Part shown: positions 15,273-28,175 of the stretch, piece by piece
How positions within the stretch are numbered: position 1 is the stretch's first letter
Layout of the letters: every line of letters starts with the position of its first letter
Made by a program: the position numbers and the translations under genes
DNA from: Gloeobacter violaceus PCC 7421
GTDB taxonomy: Bacteria > Cyanobacteriota > Cyanobacteriia > Gloeobacterales > Gloeobacteraceae
Direction of reading: 5' to 3'
Length of the DNA stretch: 64,000 nt
Assembly (NCBI RefSeq): GCF_000011385.1
Contig: NC_005125.1
Coordinates: 3,844,001-3,908,000 of the forward strand
Notes under the pieces: generated by a model
What the model was told of the DNA's origin: nothing
Databases searched by the model: none
Seen by the model: only the letters and a program-made list of their open reading frames with translations

Positions 15273-17879
15273 TTAGCGCCGCCCCGGCCGCGCAAACAAT
15301 TCAGCCATGGGCCGCCAGTCCCCGGAAGGGATAAAGGCCGACCAGTAGTAGGGATGGCGGAAACTGCGGCTACGGAGCATGGTCAGTTGCACCCGGCGCA
15401 ACGCATCGTCACTGCCTGCCCCGGCGCGCAATTCTCGATAGAAACCGACCATCAGATCCCTGGTCGCGGTGTCCTCCACCCGCCAGAGGCTCACCAGTTG
15501 GCTTGCGGCTCCCGCCAGGGTCAGGGCGCGCCTTAGACCATAGACGCCCTCACCGCTCTCGACATCCCCAAGTCCCGTCTCGCAGGCGGAGAGCACGGCA
15601 AGTCGGGTCCCGCGCAAGTCGAGCCCGGCCACCTCCAGGGCGGTGAGCACACCGTCGTCACCACCGCTTTTACGGACGTTTACCCCCGCCAGGGCCAGCC
15701 CCGAGCGCAAGAGTGGATTTTCCGCCTGGGCAGTCGGGTGCAAAAAGAAGCCGTGGGTGGCAATGTGCAGAATGCTTGGGCCGGACGAGCGCTTGAGGGC
15801 GCTTTCGGTGGCCGCTGCCTGGGTGAGCACCCGTGCGTCCGGCAGCAGTTCGGCAAGGGCTGCGACTTCTTTGGCGGTGGCAGGGAGGGCCGCAAAACCG
15901 AGTGCATCAAACTTTCCAGCCCGCGTGTCGATTTTGCCCGCAGCAGCGAGGCGATCGACAACGGCATCCGCCCGGTCAAAATCCGGATTGGCGATCAACA
16001 GTGGTGGGTGGCGAAGAGTGGCCGGGCGGGCCAGCCGCAACAGATCCCGGCCGGAACCGAGGTACTGGATGGTAAAGCGTTCCACCAGAAATCGACCGTG
16101 CTCGTCCACCAGAGCAGCAAAGGGGATCAAATTGAGCGCCCCGTCGGGGGAGACCAGCAGCCTTCGCCGCCCGCCGAGTTTGGCGCGCACCGGCTCCATC
16201 AGTGCTCGATCGAGCCGGCGGGCGGCGGCCTTGAGTTCGGCTGTCGGCAGGGCGCTGTTGCGCACGGCATTGCGAAAGACCTGGGCTGTCGCGTCGATCG
16301 CCCGGGCCTCCCCCAGATCCACCCAGTCCAGTGCGCCGCGTCCGTCGAACAGGTAGGCCGCGTAACGCGGCGCGGCGAACTGCTCACTGAAGCGGGTGGC
16401 TTGCAAGTTGAGCGGCCGGTAGAGGATCAATTCCACCAGGACCGTTGCGCTTGGAATCTGCCTTTGTACCGACTGCGGGTCGGCCGGAGCGGAAAGGGCG
16501 ACAAATTCGGCGCTGCGGCGGCTGAGGGCGGCTTCGAGGCGTTCGGCTTCGCGCTGCAAAGACTGCGCCGCACCGGTGGCGGCGGATACCGGTGCGTCCT
16601 CGCCCAGAACCCCGAAAGCCAGGGTGGCAAGCCGCGTGCGGGCGGTAGTCCATTGGTCGAGAAGCACCTGGTCGGCGGGGGCAAGGTGCGCGCGCAATGC
16701 CGCGAGGCTGCCGCTCTGGACATCGAGGATACGGCCCTTGCGCCGCAGGACGGTCGCAAAGGCCAGCCGGGCGGCGGCAGGGTCGGCGGGGGAAGAACGC
16801 AGGTGCAGCGAGATGGCCGTGTCGGCGGCAGCGGCCAGAACCTGCAAGTAATCGCGCTTGTGGCGTTCTGAACCCGCGGCGAGCGAATCCGCCAGATTGT
16901 GCTCCTGGATCTCAAGGGCGCGGGCAATCGACGTTCTGGCAAGCTCGGGCTCCCCCTGGCGGACCGCGAGCTGTGCCAAACCCTGCAGCGACTGGGCCAG
17001 ACCGGGGTGGTTCGTCCCGAGCGAGGCTTCGCGGATGGCCAAGGCGCGTCGAAACAGCGGTTCCGCCTCGTCCAGGCGGCCTTGATCGAGGTAGAGCCCG
17101 GCCAGACTGTGCAGACTGCGGGCCACATCCGGGTGGTCCGGACCGTAGGCTTTTTCCCAGATGGCCCGAACGCGCAAGAACAGCGCCTCGGCCCGCTCGA
17201 CTTCGCCCCGCAACCGGCACAGTATCGCGAGACCGTGCAGGCTGCGGGCCGCCTCCGGGTGCTCCTCGCCCAGGGTTTGCTTCCAGACCGCCAGCGCCTC
17301 CAGAAAATACCCTTCTGCCGCCGCATCGCCGGCGCCGCGGGCCATCAGCAGCATCGCCAGGCCGTGCAGGCTCTTGGCCACCAGCGGGTGGTCCGCACCC
17401 AGGGTCCGGCGACGGATGGCCAGGGCCCGTTCGGCGAGCGGTTGCGCTTCGGTGAGGTTGCCGCGCGCCCCGTAGAGCATCGCCAGGCCATAGAGACCCT
17501 TGGCGACCAGCGGGTGCGTCGGGCCAAAGGTGCGCTCGCGCAGGGCGAGCGTCCGCTCGAACAAAGCCTCCGCCTCGGTGTAATCGCCCTGCACCCCGTG
17601 CAAAACGGCCAGGTTGTTGAGGCTGTCGGCCACCTGCGGATGCTCCGCTCCAAGCGTCTGCTCCAGCAATTCCAGCCGCCGCCGACCGAGAACGATCGCC
17701 TCTGCGAACCGCCCGGCCGCCTGCAACGATTGAATTTGAGCGCTCAGGCGGTCCGCTTCGGCCACGGCCTGGTCCTGGGCGAAAAGTGCTCTGGGACAGC
17801 TCACCAGCAGCAGAACCGCCGCCAGCGACGCCAGCCCTCTTGCAAGCCGGTGGGGCGGCTGATACTCGGATGCGGCCAT
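15273..17879 (-). CDS. Secreted TPR-CHAT domain protein (putative caspase/separase-like peptidase)
   Basis: 868 residues. A hydrophobic signal-type N-terminus (LASLAAVLLLVSCPRALFAQ) suggests export. Residues about 40-310 hold about six tetratricopeptide repeats of the kinesin-light-chain type (AEHPQVADSLNNLAVLHGVQGDYTEAE pattern, 42-residue period). The C-terminal CHAT domain carries the caspase-like dyad: His in ILHIATHGFF and Cys in LAVLSACETGLGD. CHAT proteases cleave specific protein partners held by TPR-type adaptors. It is the last gene of a minus-strand series, 39 bases after the DUF928 gene. Export of a CHAT enzyme is uncommon for characterised members but typical for this cyanobacterial group. 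Substrate unknown. Confidence 0.88.
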   Translation of the reverse strand: MAASEYQPPHRLARGLASLAAVLLLVSCPRALFAQDQAVAEADRLSAQIQSLQAAGRFAEAIVLGRRRLELLEQTLGAEHPQVADSLNNLAVLHGVQGDYTEAEALFERTLALRERTFGPTHPLVAKGLYGLAMLYGARGNLTEAQPLAERALAIRRRTLGADHPLVAKSLHGLAMLLMARGAGDAAAEGYFLEALAVWKQTLGEEHPEAARSLHGLAILCRLRGEVERAEALFLRVRAIWEKAYGPDHPDVARSLHSLAGLYLDQGRLDEAEPLFRRALAIREASLGTNHPGLAQSLQGLAQLAVRQGEPELARTSIARALEIQEHNLADSLAAGSERHKRDYLQVLAAAADTAISLHLRSSPADPAAARLAFATVLRRKGRILDVQSGSLAALRAHLAPADQVLLDQWTTARTRLATLAFGVLGEDAPVSAATGAAQSLQREAERLEAALSRRSAEFVALSAPADPQSVQRQIPSATVLVELILYRPLNLQATRFSEQFAAPRYAAYLFDGRGALDWVDLGEARAIDATAQVFRNAVRNSALPTAELKAAARRLDRALMEPVRAKLGGRRRLLVSPDGALNLIPFAALVDEHGRFLVERFTIQYLGSGRDLLRLARPATLRHPPLLIANPDFDRADAVVDRLAAAGKIDTRAGKFDALGFAALPATAKEVAALAELLPDARVLTQAAATESALKRSSGPSILHIATHGFFLHPTAQAENPLLRSGLALAGVNVRKSGGDDGVLTALEVAGLDLRGTRLAVLSACETGLGDVESGEGVYGLRRALTLAGAASQLVSLWRVEDTATRDLMVGFYRELRAGAGSDDALRRVQLTMLRSRSFRHPYYWSAFIPSGDWRPMAELFARPGRR

Positions 17880-17918
17880 GGCTCAGGGCGCAGGAGGGGA
17901 ATAGATGAACCCGCGGGT

Positions 17919-18776
17919 CTAGGGTCGGACGTTCGGAGCAGAAATTTGGTTCAAGGCCACAGGAAATTGCGCAATCCCTGTGAACATCGGTATGGGCAGG
18001 GCACCGGCGATCACATCGAGTCCCTCGGAGCGCAGCAGCGATTGCCAGCGCCCGGCGGCAAGTGGTGCGCCGGTTGCGGTGCGGTGCAGCGCTGCCAGCG
18101 CCGGCAGCAGATCGTACCAGTAGCCGTCCTCGGCCAGCAAAGCGGTCCGTGCCGCCGGCGGCGCCTGCTCCAGCCGCCGTCTCCAGGCAACGCCCGGCAC
18201 CACCCGGCTGACCCAGGCATCCACCGTCACATTGGCCGAGGGATCGTCTAGATCGCACAGCAGCGTCACCGACCAGTGGTAATCCCGGCCCGGGGCCAGC
18301 GGCGGCGCCTCGGACGGCAGAGCGAGGGCGACGACGCCGGGGGCAAGGCCGTTGGTGTCCAGGTGGGCACGATAGAGAAGGTGCCCCTCGCGCGATTCCA
18401 GGGTAAACAGCACCGGCGGGGCGGAGGCGCCCACCGTCGGCAGGTGCCAGAGGAAGGTGGGATGGGCAGCCTGGGTCAATCCGGGCGAACTTCTGGGCGC
18501 CAGGGCGGTCAGCGGCGCCGGCACCGGTAGATCGCATCCCGCCGAGCGCAGGTGCCTGACCCGCTGCGCCGGCAGGCGGCGATCGCGCGTGCGCACGAGC
18601 TTGAAGAAGTTCTGACTTGGCGCGGCCGGTTTTTGAACCGGGCGCTCGCCAGGCGTCACCCTGGCGGGTCGGGGAGTTTTTGGGGTTTCCCCGGCCGCCG
18701 CAGGCGCTTCCCACCCCCGCCAGGCCATGTTCATCGCGAGCAGGCCCCAGGCAAGTCGATAAAGCAGTACGGGCAT
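17919..18776 (-). CDS. DUF928 family secreted protein
   Basis: 285 residues. An N-terminal hydrophobic segment (LLYRLAWGLLAMNMAW) looks like a signal peptide or anchor. The DUF928 pattern is visible: GCDLPVPAPLTALAP, then HPTFLWHLP and VLFTLESREGHLLYRAHL, then APPLAPGRDYHWSVTLLCD, and a C-terminal GYWYDLLPALAAL. The family is of unknown function, almost confined to cyanobacteria, and from memory is often found near CHAT-TPR genes. It sits between the caspase-STAND gene (37-base gap) and the TPR-CHAT gene (39-base gap), so co-transcription is likely. A GTG 27 bases upstream is an alternative start; neither has a strong Shine-Dalgarno site. Confidence 0.85.
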   Translation of the reverse strand: MPVLLYRLAWGLLAMNMAWRGWEAPAAAGETPKTPRPARVTPGERPVQKPAAPSQNFFKLVRTRDRRLPAQRVRHLRSAGCDLPVPAPLTALAPRSSPGLTQAAHPTFLWHLPTVGASAPPVLFTLESREGHLLYRAHLDTNGLAPGVVALALPSEAPPLAPGRDYHWSVTLLCDLDDPSANVTVDAWVSRVVPGVAWRRRLEQAPPAARTALLAEDGYWYDLLPALAALHRTATGAPLAAGRWQSLLRSEGLDVIAGALPIPMFTGIAQFPVALNQISAPNVRP

Positions 18777-18813
18777 AGGCGGTCTTTGGCTCCGGTTCGG
18801 CACAGGCGACTAA

Positions 18814-21800
18814 TCAATATTTGCACGGGCGGTTGGGCGTGTTGTCGGAACTGGCTGCAAGCCAATTGCAGCCGCGGGCGACAAGGCCCGCCATATCGAG
18901 CTGCCAATCATTCCAGAGCAACACGGTTTTGTCGAGGCCCGCGGAAATCACCGTCCGGCTGTCGGGGCTGAATCCGACGCTCGTCACCGGGGCAGTGTGC
19001 CCCTCGAGCACTTTGAGCAGCGTCCCGTCAAGACTCCACAACTTGACCAGGCGATCGTGCCCGGCGGTGGCGAGGGTGCGGCCGTCGGGGCTGAAGGCGA
19101 GCGCGCCGATCCAGTCTGTGTGGGCGGCCCAGTTCTGCCGCAGAAGGCCGTCGGCCTCCCAAATCCGCACCATGCCCTCCTCGCCCGCGGCGGCGAGGAT
19201 TTGTCCGTCGGGGCTGTAGTGCAGCGAGTGCACCGGGCCGCTGTGCCCGCTCAACTGCCCGAGGGCGGTGCCGTCGCGCCGCCATAGCCGCACCGTGCCG
19301 TCGCCGCCGCCCGTGGCGAGGCGATCGCCCTTGGGGCTGAAGGCGACCTCAAGCACACCTCCGGGCGTGCCTCCAAAGGCGGCCTGCAATATCCCCTGCG
19401 CATTCCAGAGGCGAACGGTCTCGCCCGCGGCGGCGAGGATTTGTCCGTCGGGGCTGTAGTGCAGCGAGTGCACCGGGCCGCTGTGCCCGCTCAACTGCCC
19501 GAGGGCGGTGCCGTCGCGCCGCCATAGCCGCACCGTGCCGTCGCCGCCGCCCGTGGCGAGGCGATCGCCCTTGGGGCTGAAGGCGACCTCGATCACCGCC
19601 TGCGCGTGGCCGCGCAGGATTGCCAGCGGCTTGCCGTCACGGCTCCACAGGCGAGTCGTCCGATCGTCGCCCGCACTGGCTACGAGCGCCCCATCCGGGC
19701 TGAAGCGGGCACTCAGCACCCCGTCGGTGTGGCCATAGAGGGTTCGGCGCAGGGGCGGCTGCAGCCGCCACAGCCGCACGGTGCGGTCGAGGCTGGCGGT
19801 GGCGAGGGTCTGGCCGTCGCCACCGAAGCTGAGGGAGGTGATGTCGGAACTATGGCCCTGCAGCACCCCGGCGGGAGTGCCGTCGGGCCGCCACAGCCGC
19901 ACGGTGCGGTCGAAGCCGGCGGTGGCCAGAAGCGCACCGTCCGGGCTGAAGGCGACCGCAAAGACGGCTTCGCTGTGGCCGCGCAGGGATTTGAGCCCGT
20001 GGCCTTCCCGGCTCCAGAGCCTGACCGCCCCGGTGCGGTCGCCGGAGGCGATGACGCGCCCATCGGGACTGACAGCCACCGCCAGCGCCCAGTCGCGGTG
20101 ACCGCGCAGCGTGGCGCCCAGGCGGCCGTCGCGCCGCCACAACCGGATGGCGCCGTCGGCCGAGGCGGCGGCAATCAAGTCGCCGTCGGGGCTGAAGGCC
20201 AGGGCAAATACCGGATTGCCGGGATCGGCCAGGGTCCGCAGCAACCGGCCTTCGATGCTCCACACACGCACACAACCGTCGGAGCTGGCGGTGGCCAGGG
20301 TCGCCTCCCCGGGCGAGAAGCGCACGTCGTAGACACCGCGCGGATGGCGCAGCGTCGTCACCGGTCCGCCCTCGGACCGCTGCAGCGCCACGATACCGTC
20401 GTCGCGGGCCACCGCCAGCAGCCCGCCGTCGGGGCTGAAGCGCACCTGAAGGTTGGGTTTGTGATCGGTGCTGCTGGCGAGTGCCGCTATCTTGCGCACC
20501 AGGGTGCCGTCGGGACGCCACAGCCGCACCTGCCCGTCGACGCTGCCGCTCGCCAGCAGCGCCGCGCCGGGACTGAAGGCGACGCTTGTCACCCACTGCG
20601 GATGCTCGATGCGATTCCACTGCTGAACGGTGCTGAGCGCTTCGCGCAGGATGCTTTCTGTCTGGCGGGTCTGCCCGGTGTCGGCGGACAGGGTCTGCAA
20701 CTGCTGTCTGCCGGCCCGGAGGGCGGCCTGCAGACCCTCCGGCCCGCGGTGGGTGCTCAAGAAGCTGCGGGCGTAGGCGGTATGGGTGGCGATCTCGTTG
20801 TGTTGGAGGTCGCCCACGAGCTTGAAGAGCACCCCGCCCAACACCGCCACCACCAGCGCCAGGGCTCCCATCGCCCCGGCCGCCAGCCTGGTGCGCACCA
20901 GCGCGCGTTGCTGGCGTTGCTGCAGGGCTGCCCGCTGCGCCAGGCACGCCTCGATGAAGCGGTTGCTGGTGGCGGTCAGCTCGTCGGCACAGCCCTGGTG
21001 CAACTCCTCAGCCTCGGCCAGCCGCGCCCCGCTGAGTAAAAATTCGTCGCTGCGGCCGCTTTGCAACCACAGGTGCGCCGCCTGCTCGATCTGTCGCTGC
21101 ACCCGCAATCTGGCGCGGTTCTCCTCAAGCCACCAGCGCAAAGTCGACCAGTTGCGAATCAGCACCTCGTGGGCGACCTCCACGGTCACCTCGGCATGCA
21201 GCTGCTCGATGGCCCCGGCAATGTCATCGTCGGCAGCGGCGCCGCGCTCGATGCCGGTGCCGGCGGCCTGCCCTCTGTTTTCCTCGGTGCCAATCACAAT
21301 CAAACGCGCGTCGCTGAAGGCTTTAAGCGTCTGTTCGACCAGAGCCGGGCCGTAGCGCGGCACCAGCAGATCCGCCTTGCGCACCCGCCTGCGGGTGTCG
21401 GGCATGCCTTCTCCCAACTGGGTGAGCGACAGAAAAAGCCAGTGGGCGCAGGCGCGGGCCTGCGGGCAGAGTGCGCCGAAAACCTCCTCGGCTTTGCGCT
21501 CCAGGGCGCCTTCGATGCCGCCTATCTGCTGCCGGTAGGCCCGCAGAGTGAGCCAACCGCCCGCGCGCCGCTCCCACAACTGCTCCAGGACAAATTCGAG
21601 CAACGCCAGTTCGCCGCGGCTGCGCTCGAGGTCCCGCAGCAGCACCTCCACCAGTTCCGGCTCCACCTGCAGGCCGACCTGGGCGGCCGGTTTGAGGATA
21701 ATGTCGCGGTAGTCGGCCTGGCTGAGTTCGGCGGACAGGTAGACCACCGAGCGCTCCAGCAGCCGGTGCAATCCCCGCAACCGCAAAGCGCCCTCGGCAC

Positions 21801-23862
21801 AATCCGCCCGCAGCGTGATCACCAGCTTGAAGCGATCGGGCGCATGCTCTAGGGCGCCAAGCACCAGTTCGACAAATCGGTCGCACTCCAGGGCGGCACT
21901 GAGGGTCAAAAGCTCCTCGAATTGGTCGACCACCAGCACCAGCACCGGCTGCGGCCGGGTGCGCAGCCAGCGGACAAATCCCTCCGCCCCCAGATACACC
22001 AACCCCTCCAACTCCCGGCGCTCCGTCTCGCCGGCGCCCATCGCCCCCGATTCCCCCAGCCGGGCGATCAGGTTCGCGAGCGGGTGGGTGCCCGGCTGCA
22101 TCGTGCAAAGGCGCCAGCGCCCGCTGCCTGGAATCATGCCCCCCTGGCGCAGCTGTGCCATCAACCCCGCCTGCACCAGCGACGATTTTCCGCAGCCGCT
22201 CGCGCCGACCACCGCCACAAACGACCGCTCCTGCAGCCCATGGAGCAGCCGGGCCACGAGCGGACCGCGCCCGTAAAAAAATGGGGCCGCCGCTTCTGCG
22301 AAGGCCCTCAGCCCCATATAAGGGCAAATCCTGGTGTCAAAAGGTGCCGCCGAATCGCCGGGGAGCACCTCGACGATTCCCTCGACCCCAGAAAGCCAGC
22401 CTTCGAAGTGCGTGGTCTCTGCGGCAGTTTGGTCCTGCAATTGGGCTATCCATTCAGCCGCGCTCAATCCGGCCGCGGCGGCGGCCAGGGTGGTCACCAG
22501 CGCCTCCCCGAATCGCCCCGCTTCGTCGGGTGCCGATAACCCGGCCATCAGGCACAAGCCAAGGGTTTGCGGCTGCTGCTGGCTTTGTATCCAGCGGCGC
22601 ACCGCCTCCAGGTTCTCGGGCTCCACGACCCAGTCGCAAACCCAGATGCGCCGGTCGGGGCGTCCCGCCTGCATCTGCTGACCCAACCACAACAGGCCCA
22701 CGGCGGTGCCGCCGAGATCGAGATGCAGATCCCCGGCCCCAGTGCAGACGACCCGCCCCCCGAGGTACACCAGCACCGTCCGCGCCACCGGCGAATCGCC
22801 CGCCAGTCGCCGGGCCAGCCACTGCCTGGGGGCGGATTCGGCAGACCAGTAGCGGATGTCGAAGCGACCGAGGCGGGCCAGTTCGCGGCTGAGTTTCACG
22901 CCCACGCCCCGACCGACCGGCGATTCGATCACCAGCGCTCGGCGAGTCTGCGAAGCCCCTGCCGCCCGCAGCGCGCGGCCGAGCACCACCGGGGCCACCC
23001 CGCCGACGAAGCGCTTGGGTGTCTGTAGAGAATGGAGTCGAAAGCGCTCGATCTCGCCCCGGCGCCCTTTTTGGCGGTTCAACAGGCGCAACTGTTTGTT
23101 GATCTGATCGATATGGCGCAGGGTCTGGTAGTAGACAAATTTGTACAGGCCGTCGATATCGATCACACCCTGGCAGTCCGCCGCTTCGCCGCGCAGACCG
23201 CGAATGAGATAGTAAGTGAATACGCCGTGGCCCAGTTCGGGAAACTCCCACGAGCGCTCGCCCGCGTCGCACGAAAGCAGCGCGTAGAGACTGCGCCGCT
23301 GGGGGGCATGCCGCTGCAGAGCCGCCACCAGTCGGCCGGCCGCATCGTCGGCCTGCATCGCTCCGGCCGGGACAAACCCGGCGCCGCTGTGGCAGGCGTC
23401 CAGCCAGAGCAACTGCTGATGCGCACGGCAACTGGCCAGGGATCCCAGCAACTCCGGCAGTCCGAGGGCGGTCTGCTCCAGAGCACCCAGGCGCGTATCG
23501 GCCAGGCAAAAGAACACTTCGGTGCAGCGCCGGTCGAGCACGCCGTGGCCGGAAAAATAAAACACCACCGTGTCCTCAGGCTGCGCCTCGGCGACCAGTT
23601 GCGCCAGACTGGCGCGCACCGCCTCCAGCCGCGGCGATCGTCCGTCCTGCCCGTGGTGCACCAACTCCACACGCCGCTCGAAGCGGCCGGTGAGCTCCGC
23701 CAGGGCCGCGGCCAGTTCCCGACAATCGCAGACGGCGCACCCCAGCCCTCCCAGCCCGGGATCTGCGTAGGTATCGATGCCGACCATCAGCATCCAGAGC
23801 CTTCCCACCTCCGCCTGCTGCAGGCGGTCGTCTCGGCTGGTGCGCAGACCCAACGGCGGCAT
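18814..23862 (-). CDS. Caspase-like peptidase / STAND NTPase / WD40 repeat signalling protein
   Basis: 1682 residues. Residues about 20-270 are a caspase (C14) domain: His in FYFSGHG near 102, Cys in DACHSG near 156. After a linker comes a novel-STAND ATPase module: YMGLRAF and a P-loop GASGCGKSS near 553, with Walker B VLVLVVDQFEEL. A single hydrophobic segment near 998 (LALVVAVLGGVLFKLV) could anchor it in the membrane. From about 1080 on are 14 WD40 repeats, enough for two seven-bladed propellers. STAND proteins oligomerise on sensing a signal, here probably activating the caspase. AAGGAG six bases before the ATG supports the start. Repeats 9-10 and 11-12 are nearly identical (see repeats). 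Target unknown. Confidence 0.92.
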   Translation of the reverse strand: MPPLGLRTSRDDRLQQAEVGRLWMLMVGIDTYADPGLGGLGCAVCDCRELAAALAELTGRFERRVELVHHGQDGRSPRLEAVRASLAQLVAEAQPEDTVVFYFSGHGVLDRRCTEVFFCLADTRLGALEQTALGLPELLGSLASCRAHQQLLWLDACHSGAGFVPAGAMQADDAAGRLVAALQRHAPQRRSLYALLSCDAGERSWEFPELGHGVFTYYLIRGLRGEAADCQGVIDIDGLYKFVYYQTLRHIDQINKQLRLLNRQKGRRGEIERFRLHSLQTPKRFVGGVAPVVLGRALRAAGASQTRRALVIESPVGRGVGVKLSRELARLGRFDIRYWSAESAPRQWLARRLAGDSPVARTVLVYLGGRVVCTGAGDLHLDLGGTAVGLLWLGQQMQAGRPDRRIWVCDWVVEPENLEAVRRWIQSQQQPQTLGLCLMAGLSAPDEAGRFGEALVTTLAAAAAGLSAAEWIAQLQDQTAAETTHFEGWLSGVEGIVEVLPGDSAAPFDTRICPYMGLRAFAEAAAPFFYGRGPLVARLLHGLQERSFVAVVGASGCGKSSLVQAGLMAQLRQGGMIPGSGRWRLCTMQPGTHPLANLIARLGESGAMGAGETERRELEGLVYLGAEGFVRWLRTRPQPVLVLVVDQFEELLTLSAALECDRFVELVLGALEHAPDRFKLVITLRADCAEGALRLRGLHRLLERSVVYLSAELSQADYRDIILKPAAQVGLQVEPELVEVLLRDLERSRGELALLEFVLEQLWERRAGGWLTLRAYRQQIGGIEGALERKAEEVFGALCPQARACAHWLFLSLTQLGEGMPDTRRRVRKADLLVPRYGPALVEQTLKAFSDARLIVIGTEENRGQAAGTGIERGAAADDDIAGAIEQLHAEVTVEVAHEVLIRNWSTLRWWLEENRARLRVQRQIEQAAHLWLQSGRSDEFLLSGARLAEAEELHQGCADELTATSNRFIEACLAQRAALQQRQQRALVRTRLAAGAMGALALVVAVLGGVLFKLVGDLQHNEIATHTAYARSFLSTHRGPEGLQAALRAGRQQLQTLSADTGQTRQTESILREALSTVQQWNRIEHPQWVTSVAFSPGAALLASGSVDGQVRLWRPDGTLVRKIAALASSTDHKPNLQVRFSPDGGLLAVARDDGIVALQRSEGGPVTTLRHPRGVYDVRFSPGEATLATASSDGCVRVWSIEGRLLRTLADPGNPVFALAFSPDGDLIAAASADGAIRLWRRDGRLGATLRGHRDWALAVAVSPDGRVIASGDRTGAVRLWSREGHGLKSLRGHSEAVFAVAFSPDGALLATAGFDRTVRLWRPDGTPAGVLQGHSSDITSLSFGGDGQTLATASLDRTVRLWRLQPPLRRTLYGHTDGVLSARFSPDGALVASAGDDRTTRLWSRDGKPLAILRGHAQAVIEVAFSPKGDRLATGGGDGTVRLWRRDGTALGQLSGHSGPVHSLHYSPDGQILAAAGETVRLWNAQGILQAAFGGTPGGVLEVAFSPKGDRLATGGGDGTVRLWRRDGTALGQLSGHSGPVHSLHYSPDGQILAAAGEEGMVRIWEADGLLRQNWAAHTDWIGALAFSPDGRTLATAGHDRLVKLWSLDGTLLKVLEGHTAPVTSVGFSPDSRTVISAGLDKTVLLWNDWQLDMAGLVARGCNWLAASSDNTPNRPCKY
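19180..19350. repeat. 171-bp exact direct repeat, copy 1 (WD40 coding)
   Basis: Identical over 171 bases to 19420-19590, offset 240 bp, inside the WD40 part of the caspase-STAND gene. It encodes parts of repeats 11 and 12. Perfect identity including silent positions means a recent duplication or gene conversion. Confidence 0.9.
19420..19590. repeat. 171-bp exact direct repeat, copy 2 (WD40 coding)
   Basis: Second copy of the 19180-19350 sequence, encoding parts of WD40 repeats 9 and 10. The two copies keep the reading frame (240 bp = 80 codons apart). Confidence 0.9.
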
Positions 23863-23989
23863 CGCTTCTCCTTATCGTACCTTTCGTACCTTCGGCGCGG
23901 CATCGCCCGGGCCTTCCCGGCTCCGCCTCTCCTGCACTCTGCCTGCTTGTAGGGCAACCCCCAGAACATCTATGCACAGAAAAGCGGTT

Positions 23990-24400
23990 TTAGCTTTCGT
24001 GCTGTCCGCTCTCGCCGTCGGACGCGGGCCGGATACAGGACTTGTAGGCGTCGATATCGGTACAGGTACCAAACCACTGAGCGATTCGGCCCTCGGCGTC
24101 GCGGATCGGCTGCACCTGCATCAGGTGCCACCGGTAATTCCCATCGCCGGCGCGCAATCGATATTCCATAGCGTACGATGTGCCGGTGCGCGTGGCTTTG
24201 TACCCACGCTGTAGACAACTGGGCAGATCCTTCGGGTGGACAACCGCCTTCCACCCCCAACCCTGCAGCTGTTCTCCGCTCATGCCCGTGTAGTCCAGGG
24301 CTCGCTTGTTACAACAATCGAGAGCACCGTTTGCCCTCGCAGTCCAAGCAATTTGTGGTAGACATTCAAGAAGATATCGGATGCGCCAGTCGTCGAACAT
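23990..24400 (-). CDS. Stand-alone PAS/PAC domain protein
   Basis: 136 residues, essentially one PAS domain with its PAC extension: LPQIAWTARANGALDCCNKRALDYTG, then GWGWKAVVHPKDLPSC and the PAC part YRLRAGDGNYRWHLMQVQPIRDAEGRIAQWFGTCTDI. This closely resembles PAS domains of phytobacterial and cyanobacterial histidine kinases but no output domain is attached. GGGAGGT lies about eleven bases before the ATG. It sits between the DUF1822 gene and the caspase-STAND gene on the same strand. It may be a signal-binding subunit acting in trans, or the remnant of a larger kinase. Confidence 0.85.
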   Translation of the reverse strand: MFDDWRIRYLLECLPQIAWTARANGALDCCNKRALDYTGMSGEQLQGWGWKAVVHPKDLPSCLQRGYKATRTGTSYAMEYRLRAGDGNYRWHLMQVQPIRDAEGRIAQWFGTCTDIDAYKSCIRPASDGESGQHES

Positions 24401-24562
24401 TGATGAACTTACCTCCCAGCGTCATTGATAGCCATCAACGCCACCTGGCGGCCACATATTCGGATGGGATATTGCAACGAAAAATCGATTTAAGCCGCAC
24501 CTTTGGGCGGATCTCAGCCACAATTTTTTACATATTTGCCGTCGATGAAAGCGACAGGGCGC

Positions 24563-25720
24563 TCAAGCCAACCACAAAATTTCCCGGTCGAAACCTTCCG
24601 GCTCCGGCTCGATTTCCCAGGTGAGGGCGTCGCCCGGGTCGACCGCCACCTCGACGTACAGTCGCTCGACGGGTTGCTCGGCACTATCCTCGTTGTTGAC
24701 AAAGGCCTGCAGGTCTTCAGCCAACAGGCGCAGCACGAAGCCGGACGGGATCGGTGCGCCGGCTTCGGCCGCCTGCAGTTCGAACCGCCAGACGGGAACA
24801 TCCGGCGATTCGACAGGCTGCAGTTGCAGTTCGTAGTCGCCTCCGGCGATGCGCAGAGGACGCGTGAGCAGCACGCCCATGGACGGTGCCCCAGGCGCGA
24901 GTCCGCGGGCACGGGTACCCTCCGGTTCGGCCCGAAGCCGCCAGCGCCGCCAGCCTGCGAGTTCGCCAAGCGGGCTGACACCCGCTTGAATCCAGTCGGG
25001 TACCGAGCGCTGTTCAGGCAGGCCCTGACGCAGCTCGTACAGTTTTTGCCGCCAGCCGCCGTGGGCCATCAGCGCCCCCCATAGGCCAAACGGCACCGTC
25101 CACTGGGGCATCGAGAGGGCCGGATCGCCCAGCCGGGTCAGCAACTGCCGGGCCTGGCCCAGCGGCAGGGTCGGCAGGGCGGCGAGCGGGGCGCGGGTCG
25201 GCTCCGCCAGCTCGAGGTGCAGAGCGGCCGGCAGACAGGCCATCTCCCGCACCAGATCGCCTGCGATCAGGCAGTATTGACGGCGCTGAGCGTCGTAAAC
25301 GGCCACTTCCTTGAGGCGGCGGTGGCTGATAAAACCCCAAAGCTGCACCGCTCCCGCCTCCGGCGCCACCTGGGCGGCCAGGTAGTAATCCGCCGCCCAG
25401 GTGGGAATATCTATCCACTCCTGCGGCACGCACAGTTCGTCGGCCGCCGGTTCTTCGCCGGCAACCACCAGCAGCCGCCGCTCGCCGACGGCGAGGGCCG
25501 TCCCCGCCACCCATTGCCAGAAACTTGGCAGGGCATCATCCCCGGGCCAGACCCGGGCCGCACAGCCCGCCTCACCCAACCAGTCCAACACCCCCGCCAG
25601 CGCCAACCCACCCAGATAAGCCCGCCAGACCGCCGCCGGGGTGCCGAGCGGCTCGGCGCGTTGGCGGGCGGCTTCTTGTCCCGCTGCAGATACTTCAAGC
25701 CAGAGGTCGTTCGAATCCAT
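24563..25720 (-). CDS. DUF1822 family protein
   Basis: 385 residues. Recognised as DUF1822 by its overall pattern: an N-terminal LGTPAAVWRAYLGGLALAGVLDWLGE segment, LCVPQEWIDIPTWAADYYLAAQV near residue 110, and a LWGFISHRRLKEVA motif. Function is unknown. From memory the family is cyanobacterial and often lies directly after a sigma factor of the type encoded upstream, as here (68-base gap). The ATG at 25720 avoids overlap with the sigma gene. The C-terminal third is acidic and beta-rich (GGDYELQLQPVES, VEVAVDPGDALTWEIEPEP). No membrane segment is seen in the chosen frame. Confidence 0.85.
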   Translation of the reverse strand: MDSNDLWLEVSAAGQEAARQRAEPLGTPAAVWRAYLGGLALAGVLDWLGEAGCAARVWPGDDALPSFWQWVAGTALAVGERRLLVVAGEEPAADELCVPQEWIDIPTWAADYYLAAQVAPEAGAVQLWGFISHRRLKEVAVYDAQRRQYCLIAGDLVREMACLPAALHLELAEPTRAPLAALPTLPLGQARQLLTRLGDPALSMPQWTVPFGLWGALMAHGGWRQKLYELRQGLPEQRSVPDWIQAGVSPLGELAGWRRWRLRAEPEGTRARGLAPGAPSMGVLLTRPLRIAGGDYELQLQPVESPDVPVWRFELQAAEAGAPIPSGFVLRLLAEDLQAFVNNEDSAEQPVERLYVEVAVDPGDALTWEIEPEPEGFDREILWLA

Positions 25721-25788
25721 GGGTACAACGCAAGTAAGTGATACCGCAGATAAAAGGACGGCGACGGCCATCGCAAGGATCGACGCGG

Positions 25789-27024
25789 TTATTCGCCGTG
25801 GTCGCCGTGGTAGGCTTGCAGCCACTCCTCCAGAACTGTGCCTATAGCTTCGAGTAGGGCGAGCGAAAGCGGCCTATGCAGAACCTGCGCGCAGCGTGGG
25901 GCCAGCTGTTCGAGCAATTGTGCCTTGAGGCGCTTGAGGCGGCGGTGCACCGTCCATTGCCTGATGGCAAAGCGCTCGCCAATCTCGCTCTGGGTCATCC
26001 CACCCTGGTAGTACAACCGCAACAGCTCCCGGTCGGCCTGCGGCTGCACTCGGACGATTGCCTCGCCCAAAAGCGCGTTGAGCCGTTCGCGCAACGCCTC
26101 GCGCTCCTGTTCTTGCTCCTCGGCGATTAGTCGCTCGAATTCGGACGGCTGCTGGACGACAGGCAGCGTCTCCAGCCGGTCGAGGGAGGTGCCGTCCCCG
26201 GACGCACCCCCCAGCGGACGGATATCCGGAACGAGCGCCGCGCGGACAGCCACCGCACACTGCCGCAGCCATTGCTCGAGCAGTTGCGGGGTGGGCGGCG
26301 CTCCGGCGGCCAGGCCCTGGCCGATGCTTTCGCGGTGGTACAGGGCGCAGACCCTCTGCCAGGTGGCCGGATCCGGGTCTGCAAGCCGGGCGGAATCGCG
26401 CCGGGGTGCCGGGCAGTACAGTTCGCGAAAGCAGATCCAGGCGAGCACATAACAGCGGATGGCGCGCTCATCGTAGGACACCTGCTTGAGCGATGCGCAC
26501 AAAAACCGCTGCGTGACCCGCCGCAACAGCGCCCAAGGCGAGCTGATGTCGGCTTCTTGATGCTGGCGCAACGCTTCGCCGATGATGCTGTGGAAGACCG
26601 AGATGGCGTAATTGTCGAGGCTGTCGCCGCGTTCCGGCTGGAAACCGCGCAAAACCCGATCGCACTTGAGCATGCCGATCTGAAACAAATCGAACACCTC
26701 AAAACGGCTACTGGTAAAGCGGGTACTGGCCCGGTGGGCCGCCCGGTAACAGGCTTCCTGCAAATAGGCGCACAGGTGGCGCGCCGCCAGACGGCGCGCC
26801 TCAGCACCGACGGTCTGGTCGTCCTGCCAGATGCGATGCCAGTACAGCACCCAGAAGCGTCGCGAGGCATCCGCCTGCGCAAGGCGGCCGAGGGAGTGTT
26901 CGATACTCGATTGCAGCTGGGCGTCGGCGATCCAGCCCGCCGGACGGCCCATGTTCCAGCTCAAATAGGTCGAGAAAAGTTCAACAATTTCTGCGCGACG
27001 ATAGAAGGGGAAGGGGCTCCTCAC
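25789..27024 (-). CDS. Alternative sigma factor of the sigma-70 family (cyanobacterial CHAT/DUF1822-associated type)
   Basis: 411 residues. A region-2-like helical part (RFEVFDLFQIGMLKCDRVLRGFQPERGDSLDNYAISVFHSIIGEALR, residues about 125-175) and a clear C-terminal region 4 helix-turn-helix (LRLYYQGGMTQSEIGERFAIRQWTVHRRLKRLK) identify a sigma factor. The GTG at 27024 is decided by a perfect AAGGAGGT site just upstream; ATG at 27051 lacks one and the product would start unlike the family. A long region between 2 and 4 (about 190 residues) is larger than in ECF factors. It heads a minus-strand series ending in the TPR-CHAT gene and may transcribe it. No anti-sigma gene is recognised. Confidence 0.87.
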   Translation of the reverse strand: MRSPFPFYRRAEIVELFSTYLSWNMGRPAGWIADAQLQSSIEHSLGRLAQADASRRFWVLYWHRIWQDDQTVGAEARRLAARHLCAYLQEACYRAAHRASTRFTSSRFEVFDLFQIGMLKCDRVLRGFQPERGDSLDNYAISVFHSIIGEALRQHQEADISSPWALLRRVTQRFLCASLKQVSYDERAIRCYVLAWICFRELYCPAPRRDSARLADPDPATWQRVCALYHRESIGQGLAAGAPPTPQLLEQWLRQCAVAVRAALVPDIRPLGGASGDGTSLDRLETLPVVQQPSEFERLIAEEQEQEREALRERLNALLGEAIVRVQPQADRELLRLYYQGGMTQSEIGERFAIRQWTVHRRLKRLKAQLLEQLAPRCAQVLHRPLSLALLEAIGTVLEEWLQAYHGDHGE

Positions 27025-27118
27025 ACGGACCTCCTTGGTGAGGGAGAGCATCCATACTCTACCTGAGTCGACTTTTTGCGATAGAAGAAATATGAAAAAA
27101 TTCGGAAAACTTGAACAA

Positions 27119-27160: not shown

Positions 27161-27981
27161 CTAAGGCAGCGAATCGGCTGCCGCCTGGGCGTCGACCAGA
27201 CCAAAACCGTCGAAGGGCGTGTAGCCGCTACCAATAGTATTGGCAAAGGTGCCGCTCAGGGTGCCCGTGGAGGTCGTGGCGGTGAAAGTGGCGCCGGCCA
27301 GGGGGTCGGCGGAGTTGCCGAAGCCGCCGGTGGCCAGATCCCGGTCGATGCCGAAGTTGAGGGTGTCGCCGGAGTTGAAGCTTGTGAAGGTGAGGGTGAG
27401 CGTTGCGGCGGGCGCACTTGGTCCGGCGGAGGTGATGGCGGTGAGGGTGACGCCGCTGCCCCCGAGGCCGATGCGAAAGAAATTCGGATCGGTGCTGCCG
27501 GCGCCGTTGCCGGTGTGTGCACCACGGCTCCCTGGGAAGTGGTGAGGCCGACGCTGGTGACCGGCTTATGGGAGAGGGCGACAGCACTCACCCCGGCCGC
27601 CTGGCCCGCCTCGGCGGCGCGCCCGAGGGGCAGATAAGCGGAAATGGCCCCGGCCCGGTAGTGGGCATTGACGGCCACCACCTGGGCACCCAGTTTTTGA
27701 AGCGTCGGCAGCAGTTGGGCAAGTGGCACCCGCCCGTCGGGGTAGATCACCACCAATACCCGATCGCCTTGAAAATCCAGGCGCCGGTTGGAACGCAGTT
27801 GCTCGAAGCGCTCGGGTGCGCCGAGGTAGCTTTGCACCAGTTCCTTCAGGCCCGAACCGAGGTTATCGGGCACAGCGGTTTGGGACCAGGCGGGGGAGAG
27901 GGCGGCCCCGAGCCCAAAGGTCGCGGCCAAAAGCGCGAGGGTCCGGACCAAAGAGGAACGCTGGGAGTGTGCTGGGTTCAT
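27161..27981 (-). pseudogene. Remnant of a secreted subtilisin-family (S8) protein with catalytic domain deleted
   Basis: The intact start (ATG 27981, AGGA eight bases upstream) encodes a signal peptide (LVRTLALLAATFGLGAALSPAWSQ) and an N-terminal region (LKELVQSYLGAPERFEQLR, GDRVLVVIYPDGRVPLAQLLPTL, VSAVALSHKPVTSVGLTTSQGAVVH) like the pro-part of cyanobacterial subtilases. At about 27511-27530 the frame changes. From there a different frame gives a coherent beta-rich C-terminus (STDPNFFRIGLGG, TLTFTSFNSGDTLNFGIDRD) ending SGYTPFDGFGLVDAQAAADSLP, the typical end of an S8 catalytic domain. The Asp-His-Ser catalytic blocks are absent, so an internal deletion of several hundred codons removed them. 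The original frame instead runs into low-complexity Pro/Ser sequence. Confidence 0.65.
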
Positions 27982-28175
27982 CGGTATTTCCTGTGGCAAA
28001 GGGCAATGGGCCTTGGGTGCGGACGGCAATGCGAAAATCAGCCAGGGATTGTACCAGGGGTCCAGCCACGAATTGTATAAAGTAATAATGCGTCCTCCGG
28101 TCCAAACGGACGCCTGCCCCAAACCACCGTCTCGTGCGTATGATAGTTCCAAGTCGCCTCATGCTGGTGAGTTCT

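Follow-up and report, generated by a model that had tools for sequence, protein, structure and literature searches.

We analyzed a stretch of 64,000 nucleotides (hereafter the window) from the genome of the cyanobacterium Gloeobacter violaceus PCC 7421, which is a single contig of 4,659,019 bases (NC_005125.1, positions 3,844,001 to 3,908,000). The window contains a run of six genes, all on the minus strand and extending from position 27051 to 15273, that encode, in this order, a sigma factor, a DUF1822 protein, a PAS protein, a caspase/nSTAND1/transmembrane (TM)/WD40 protein, a DUF928 protein, and a tetratricopeptide repeat (TPR)-CHAT protein (Table 1). An earlier description made from the letters alone (the sequence-only reading) had named these six families, and profile searches found a match to each of them. 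The intergenic gaps of 37–162 bases that it gave are correct provided that DUF928 starts at ATG 18776, and the catalytic motifs that it called intact are present in both peptidases, with H106 (within SGHG) and C157 (within DACHSG) in the caspase domain and H709 (within ATHG) and C766 (within SACETG) in the CHAT domain. The cluster represents a local form of a module that is widespread in cyanobacteria and has already been partly sketched in the literature; most economically, it can be read as a response that is driven by the sigma factor and linked to a peptidase.

The matches of the sigma factor to Pfam regions 2 and 4 just exceed the cut-off, and its TIGR02937 score is 130 bits. An insertion of approximately 170 amino acids (aa) separates region 2 from region 4, the total length being 411–420 aa, and the protein falls outside the short-linker criterion of extracytoplasmic function (ECF) factors (approximately 200 aa in all); because of this long insertion we call it only ECF-like. 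Its start is probably the ATG at 27051, since the sequence MLSxTKEV is conserved in two relatives, one in an Aphanocapsa lilacina metagenome-assembled genome (L011) and one in a genome of the same genus (L025). For the DUF1822 protein the ATG at 25720 (MDSNDLWLE) is the probable start, and the hydrophobic stretch that precedes it in the longest open reading frame (ORF) probably lies outside the protein, which is therefore predicted to be cytoplasmic.

Table 1. Features of the six-gene cluster, with positions counted from the first letter of the window.
Feature	Position	Strand	Evidence and remarks
Sigma-70-family (ECF-like) factor, ~420 aa	25789..27051	-	Pfam Sigma70_r2 + Sigma70_r4, NCBIfam TIGR02937 6e-38
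DUF1822 protein, 385 aa, predicted cytoplasmic, candidate anti-sigma	24563..25720	-	PF08852 1.6e-110
Single-domain PAS protein, 136 aa, accessory	23990..24400	-	PAS_3 2.6e-15, TIGR00229 1.2e-12
Caspase-unmatched domain-nSTAND1-TM-WD40 protein, 1682 aa	18814..23862	-	occupies the usual CHAT-CHASE2 slot
Peptidase_C14 caspase domain	23173..23790	-	PF00656 6.1e-13; His106/Cys157 intact
~220-aa domain after the caspase, no Pfam match (residues 291-510)	22333..22992	-	weak colinear caspase-profile match
nSTAND1 NTPase	21046..22323	-	PF20703 3e-112; Walker A + Walker B intact
Predicted TM helix between STAND and WD40	20815..20871	-	mean hydropathy 2.37
WD40 repeats, at least 13	18910..20616	-	PF00400 2.1e-132
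DUF928 protein, predicted export signal	17919..18776	-	PF06051 2.7e-46
TPR-CHAT protein, accessory	15273..17879	-	TPR + CHAT 3.3e-94; His709/Cys766 intact

To follow these families in other genomes we used profiles built up from the window's own proteins. An initial scan of genome contigs with DUF1822 yielded six loci and was superseded by a whole-genome family search together with a sample of 80 stretches (up to 20 kb each) around DUF1822 genes from approximately 50 cyanobacterial genomes, plus a few stretches from other searches; 19 stretches of 20 kb each served as controls. For 85 of the 93 DUF1822 genes, the gene immediately upstream, in the same orientation, encodes a sigma factor. In most of the other eight, an insertion or a spurious ORF separates the two genes; the intervening genes in L059 are a restriction-modification pair. 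An unknown protein of 630 aa and an FHA-ferredoxin-reductase-like protein lie between sigma and DUF1822 in L042 (5213–8892) and in L043. None of the families was found in the 19 control stretches, save for one WD40 protein. The grouping of the families is thus far above chance, in line with the clustering of DUF1822, DUF928, and CHAT proteins with this sigma type that the sequence-only reading had stated for other cyanobacteria; binomial estimates of chance linkage use assumed gene numbers and give orders of magnitude only.

Three types of sigma factor occur beside DUF1822: c3, to which the window's factor belongs, c18, and c6, which is very divergent (approximately 220 aa). Types c3 and c18 are related (hhalign probability 98.4), and hhalign found no match between c6 and c3. 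We accept c6 as a sigma factor because one member matches TIGR02937 at 3e-5, because NCBI annotates its relatives as sigma-70, and because of its position. When 19 genomes were searched with the c3 and c6 profiles, 34 full-length sigma genes were obtained, 28 of them directly beside DUF1822 and one more upstream of DUF1822 in the same gene run, behind an insertion; the four genomes that lack DUF1822 have no sigma gene of either type. The pairing has exceptions in two sigma genes, of the same type, that lack an adjacent DUF1822 (G031:C1:3064824-3065987 and 4679170-4680336). Distances among the sigma factors were correlated with those among the DUF1822 proteins (r = 0.79 and 0.75), and none of 2000 permutations reached values as high. 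Because shared species ancestry alone could produce such a correlation, paralogues were tested, and in 32 of 34 cases (14.3 expected) the closest sigma and the closest DUF1822 in another genome came from a single locus. Sigma and DUF1822 thus evolve as a near-exclusive, obligate adjacent pair, and presumably they also work as a pair. No relative of DUF1822 was found in the viral contigs searched.

The position next downstream of DUF1822 (slot 3) was analyzed in 56 proteins, among which the caspase protein of the window was counted despite the intervening PAS gene. A peptidase domain is present in 51 of the 56, comprising 46 CHAT domains, 3 C14 caspases (those of the window, L014, and L101), and 2 trypsin-like domains (L074 by Pfam, and L077 by clustering with L074); most slot-3 proteins have the His and Cys motifs. 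The associated sensors are also variable: CHASE2 in 37 of the 56, and elsewhere a periplasmic-binding-protein-like domain (L092), TPR (L016), HEAT-like repeats (L050), or STAND-WD40 with a TM helix (L062). On a Pseudanabaena plasmid an M48 metallopeptidase directly follows sigma-DUF1822 (L125, 8430–10361). That unrelated peptidase families share one slot suggests that proteolysis is the conserved function. Among c6 loci, 32/36 encode a CHAT or caspase protein in the next two same-strand genes and 36/36 do so within 10 kb; the corresponding figures are 4/5 and 4/5 for c18 and 25/48 and 35/48 for c3, compared with 0/19 controls, so that the association with a neighbouring peptidase is strong in c6 and only moderate in c3, the window's class. 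In one family (L032, L033, and L037) a conserved gene pair (c40 and c41, approximately 186 and 375 aa) takes the place of the peptidase after sigma-DUF1822. DUF928 follows in 37 of the 93 DUF1822 cases; frequent further neighbours are CHAT proteins, two-partner-secretion surface proteins, and a ShlB-type transporter. Deposited plasmid records contain the arrangements sigma-DUF1822-CHAT, caspase-sigma-DUF1822, DUF1822-CHASE2-DUF928, and sigma-DUF1822-M48 metallopeptidase.

The order of all six genes is identical in L011 and L025. In L027, from a further genome of the genus, the locus consists of sigma, DUF1822, caspase/STAND/WD40, and DUF928, and the PAS gene is thus present in 3 of 4 Gloeobacter-type loci. 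Because PAS and TPR-CHAT occur in L011 and L025 yet are missing from L027, they are accessory members. The six-member make-up put forward by the sequence-only reading is therefore retained for sigma, DUF1822, the slot-3 peptidase, and DUF928, and not for these two. In the Gloeobacter variant a caspase-nSTAND1-TM-WD40 protein replaces the usual CHAT-CHASE2 protein, and PAS and a secreted TPR-CHAT protein are added. A second caspase-STAND-WD40 protein of the same genome is convergent to another sigma-DUF1822 pair (L018, 9818–14833, minus strand; likewise in L026), which links the two even outside one operon. The caspase/STAND/WD40 protein of the window has the Walker A sequence GASGCGKS and a single strong predicted TM helix. 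Homologues of DUF928, which is the sole copy in this genome, have clear signal peptides. The genome encodes six CHAT proteins; the TPR-CHAT protein of the cluster carries an export signal (LASLAAVLLLVSCPRALFA), and a lipoprotein signal is also possible. Scans for promoters and terminators gave nothing above chance, and an Rfam search gave no match.

The domain that separates the caspase from STAND (residues 291–510) shows a weak, colinear alignment to the profile of the caspase (P 7e-4, and 0.02–0.67 in further comparisons) and has lost the catalytic His motif, which is suggestive of a domain that may be a pseudo-caspase. Profile comparisons did not support its assignment as an EACC1 or EACC2 domain. 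When compared by hhalign with the N-terminal domain of the slot-3 CHAT proteins, used as a stand-in for EACC2, it gave no match (probability 0.6), and the match of the protein to NF047832 (caspase, EACC1-associated type) is 102.8 bits, under the curated cut-off of 140.

These observations lead us to propose, tentatively and at somewhat less than even confidence, that DUF1822 holds the sigma factor and that the receptor peptidase in slot 3 relieves this hold. In such a mechanism DUF1822 would most likely keep the sigma factor inactive, and the peptidase would be fused to a sensor, in Gloeobacter as a cytoplasmic caspase with an nSTAND1 switch, one membrane helix, and a WD40 propeller, and elsewhere as a CHAT peptidase joined to CHASE2 or another sensor. 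A signal at the sensor would activate the peptidase, with the PAS protein perhaps adding input; the peptidase would then cleave or dislodge DUF1822, its putative substrate, and the freed sigma factor would transcribe its own operon together with exported products such as DUF928 and the secreted CHAT protein and, in other species, two-partner-secretion surface proteins. We favour this mechanism because sigma and DUF1822 form an obligate pair, because unrelated peptidases are exchanged in one slot, because the peptidase is fused to a sensor, and because there are two precedents for it. The sequence-only reading had suggested a regulated proteolytic response with its own sigma factor, and the tie between sigma and peptidase is the part of that suggestion that our results support.

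Several observations weigh against release by proteolysis. The share of c3 loci with a peptidase is limited (just 25/48 in the next two same-strand genes and 35/48 within 10 kb), and among the three sigma-DUF1822 loci that this genome has, L017 showed no peptidase match in the stretch covered. The peptidase could equally well be one of the products that the sigma factor controls. No similarity to solved structures or to known anti-sigma factors was detected for DUF1822, and its residues ~35–170 weakly match restriction-endonuclease-like folds (best Z 8.6, over 111 residues). The structure models were built from sequences of the window and related loci only, hence from shallow alignments, and the AlphaFold model of DUF1822 (seven sequences) has a pLDDT of 69.5. 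Most of the top fold matches for residues ~35–170 are of the PD-(D/E)XK type, at middling Z and moderate pLDDT, and no Lys was found in the columns conserved at ≥70% across 79 DUF1822 sequences; the middle part of DUF1822 is thus possibly restriction-endonuclease-like, without a conserved catalytic lysine. Its C-terminal part weakly matches an Ig-like fold. The DUF928 model (pLDDT 53) was too poor for a fold search.

DUF1822 could instead be required by the sigma factor as a co-activator or adaptor, in which case the sigma factor would transcribe the operon and the peptidase would have other targets, either itself or exported proteins. The pairing and the co-divergence are expected just as much under this explanation, which would also accommodate the many c3 loci without a downstream peptidase, and Kaur et al. 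2021 (PMC8195603) proposed activation as an autopeptidase, to which the sigma factor would be coupled as a transcriptional arm. It leaves unexplained, however, why CHAT, caspase, trypsin-like, and M48 peptidases all occupy one slot, and we consider it unlikely, at roughly one chance in four.

Somewhat less probable still is a conflict system for defence or programmed cell death, in which STAND/WD40 would sense an invader, the caspase would kill or signal, and the sigma factor would launch a response. The same proposal is made in PMC8195603 for EACC1/EACC2 systems, and caspase and nSTAND1 are described there as recurring in predicted conflict systems. Copies of the module also occur on plasmids, and a PADLOC search of the six proteins returned weak matches to a caspase model. 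These matches are single-domain only and confined to the caspase/STAND/WD40 protein, with none for the other five, and the exported DUF928, the secreted CHAT protein, the two-partner-secretion partners, and the extracytoplasmic CHASE2 better fit sensing of the envelope or environment. The nearest flanking genes, which we take from their ORFs to be glycerol-3-phosphate dehydrogenase-like and dihydroorotase-like, presumably have housekeeping roles. Phage defence or cell death, which the sequence-only reading had offered, was therefore dropped as the main explanation, the PADLOC matches being domain-level only. Just upstream of the sigma gene lies the remnant of a gene for a secreted subtilase (S8) (27164–28062, minus strand), in which residues ~190–668 are gone and the remainder is out of frame; its relative is an intact 819-aa frame in L025 (12090–14546) and is broken in L011. 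Finally, that the genes are mere neighbours without functional coupling is very improbable: DUF928 and CHAT are common also away from DUF1822 and one congener lacks PAS and TPR-CHAT, for which this explanation is possible, but the linkage of sigma, DUF1822, slot 3, and DUF928 over many families, and in 0 of 19 controls, largely refutes it for those four.

The closest described loci are those of Kaur et al. 2021 (PMC8195603), who report EACC2-caspase proteins with variable C-termini beside an ECF sigma factor and DUF1822. Both there and here sigma and DUF1822 accompany a caspase-superfamily protein with a variable sensory C-terminus (CHASE2, STAND), and their loci are very probably of the same family as our CHAT-CHASE2 loci. 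For this reason the claim of the sequence-only reading that no system of this make-up was known is weakened and holds only in part. The window has sigma and DUF1822 beside a caspase-superfamily protein, as in their neighbourhoods, and differs from their EACC2 proteins, in which a constant N-terminal EACC2 domain precedes the caspase, in that its C14 caspase begins at residue 25, with no other domain ahead of it. DUF928, the secreted CHAT protein, the surface proteins, and the measured pairing of sigma and DUF1822 have no counterpart in the portion of their article available. In the open-licence papers searched we did not find DUF1822 as a sigma holder, a quantified pairing, the linkage of DUF928 and secreted CHAT, or the replacement by caspase-STAND-TM-WD40 in Gloeobacter.

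Release of a transcription programme by proteolysis has several parallels. In DegS-RseA and RsiW, as cited in PMC10028731, regulated proteolysis of the anti-sigma partner frees an ECF sigma factor; unlike in these systems, DUF1822 is predicted to be soluble and the peptidase belongs to the caspase superfamily. HetF of Anabaena, which acts in cell division and heterocyst patterning, cleaves the regulator PatU3 (PMC12288457), and is thus likewise a cyanobacterial protease that cuts a regulator of a transcription programme, whereas a sigma factor and DUF1822 are absent from the part of the published account available; in NCBIfam, one slot-3 CHAT-CHASE2 protein matches HetF very weakly (E 0.037). 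In the CRISPR type III-E CASP system the TPR-CHAT protein Csx29 cleaves Csx30, the inhibitor of an ECF-like sigma factor (PMC10028731). Like the present one, that system combines a CHAT peptidase with a partner protein and an ECF-like sigma factor, and it is a precedent for a sigma factor released by a peptidase; it differs in having Cas7-11 and in being activated by RNA, whereas we propose a membrane or STAND sensor. No relation between DUF1822 and Csx30 was detected, either against PDB sequences at E ≤ 1 or among the matches listed in the fold searches. Possible, with roughly one chance in three, is the broader view that DUF1822 is a new sigma-controlling family and that exchangeable protease receptors (CHAT-CHASE2, caspase-STAND-TM-WD40, CHAT-STAND-WD40, trypsin-like, and M48) release dedicated sigma factors in cyanobacteria, as a class of transmembrane signalling from protease to sigma that would parallel CASP outside CRISPR. 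If true, DUF1822 would gain a function, many cyanobacterial caspase and CHAT proteins would act in the control of transcription and not in cell death, and the module would be a natural non-CRISPR counterpart to the Csx29-Csx30-sigma switch.

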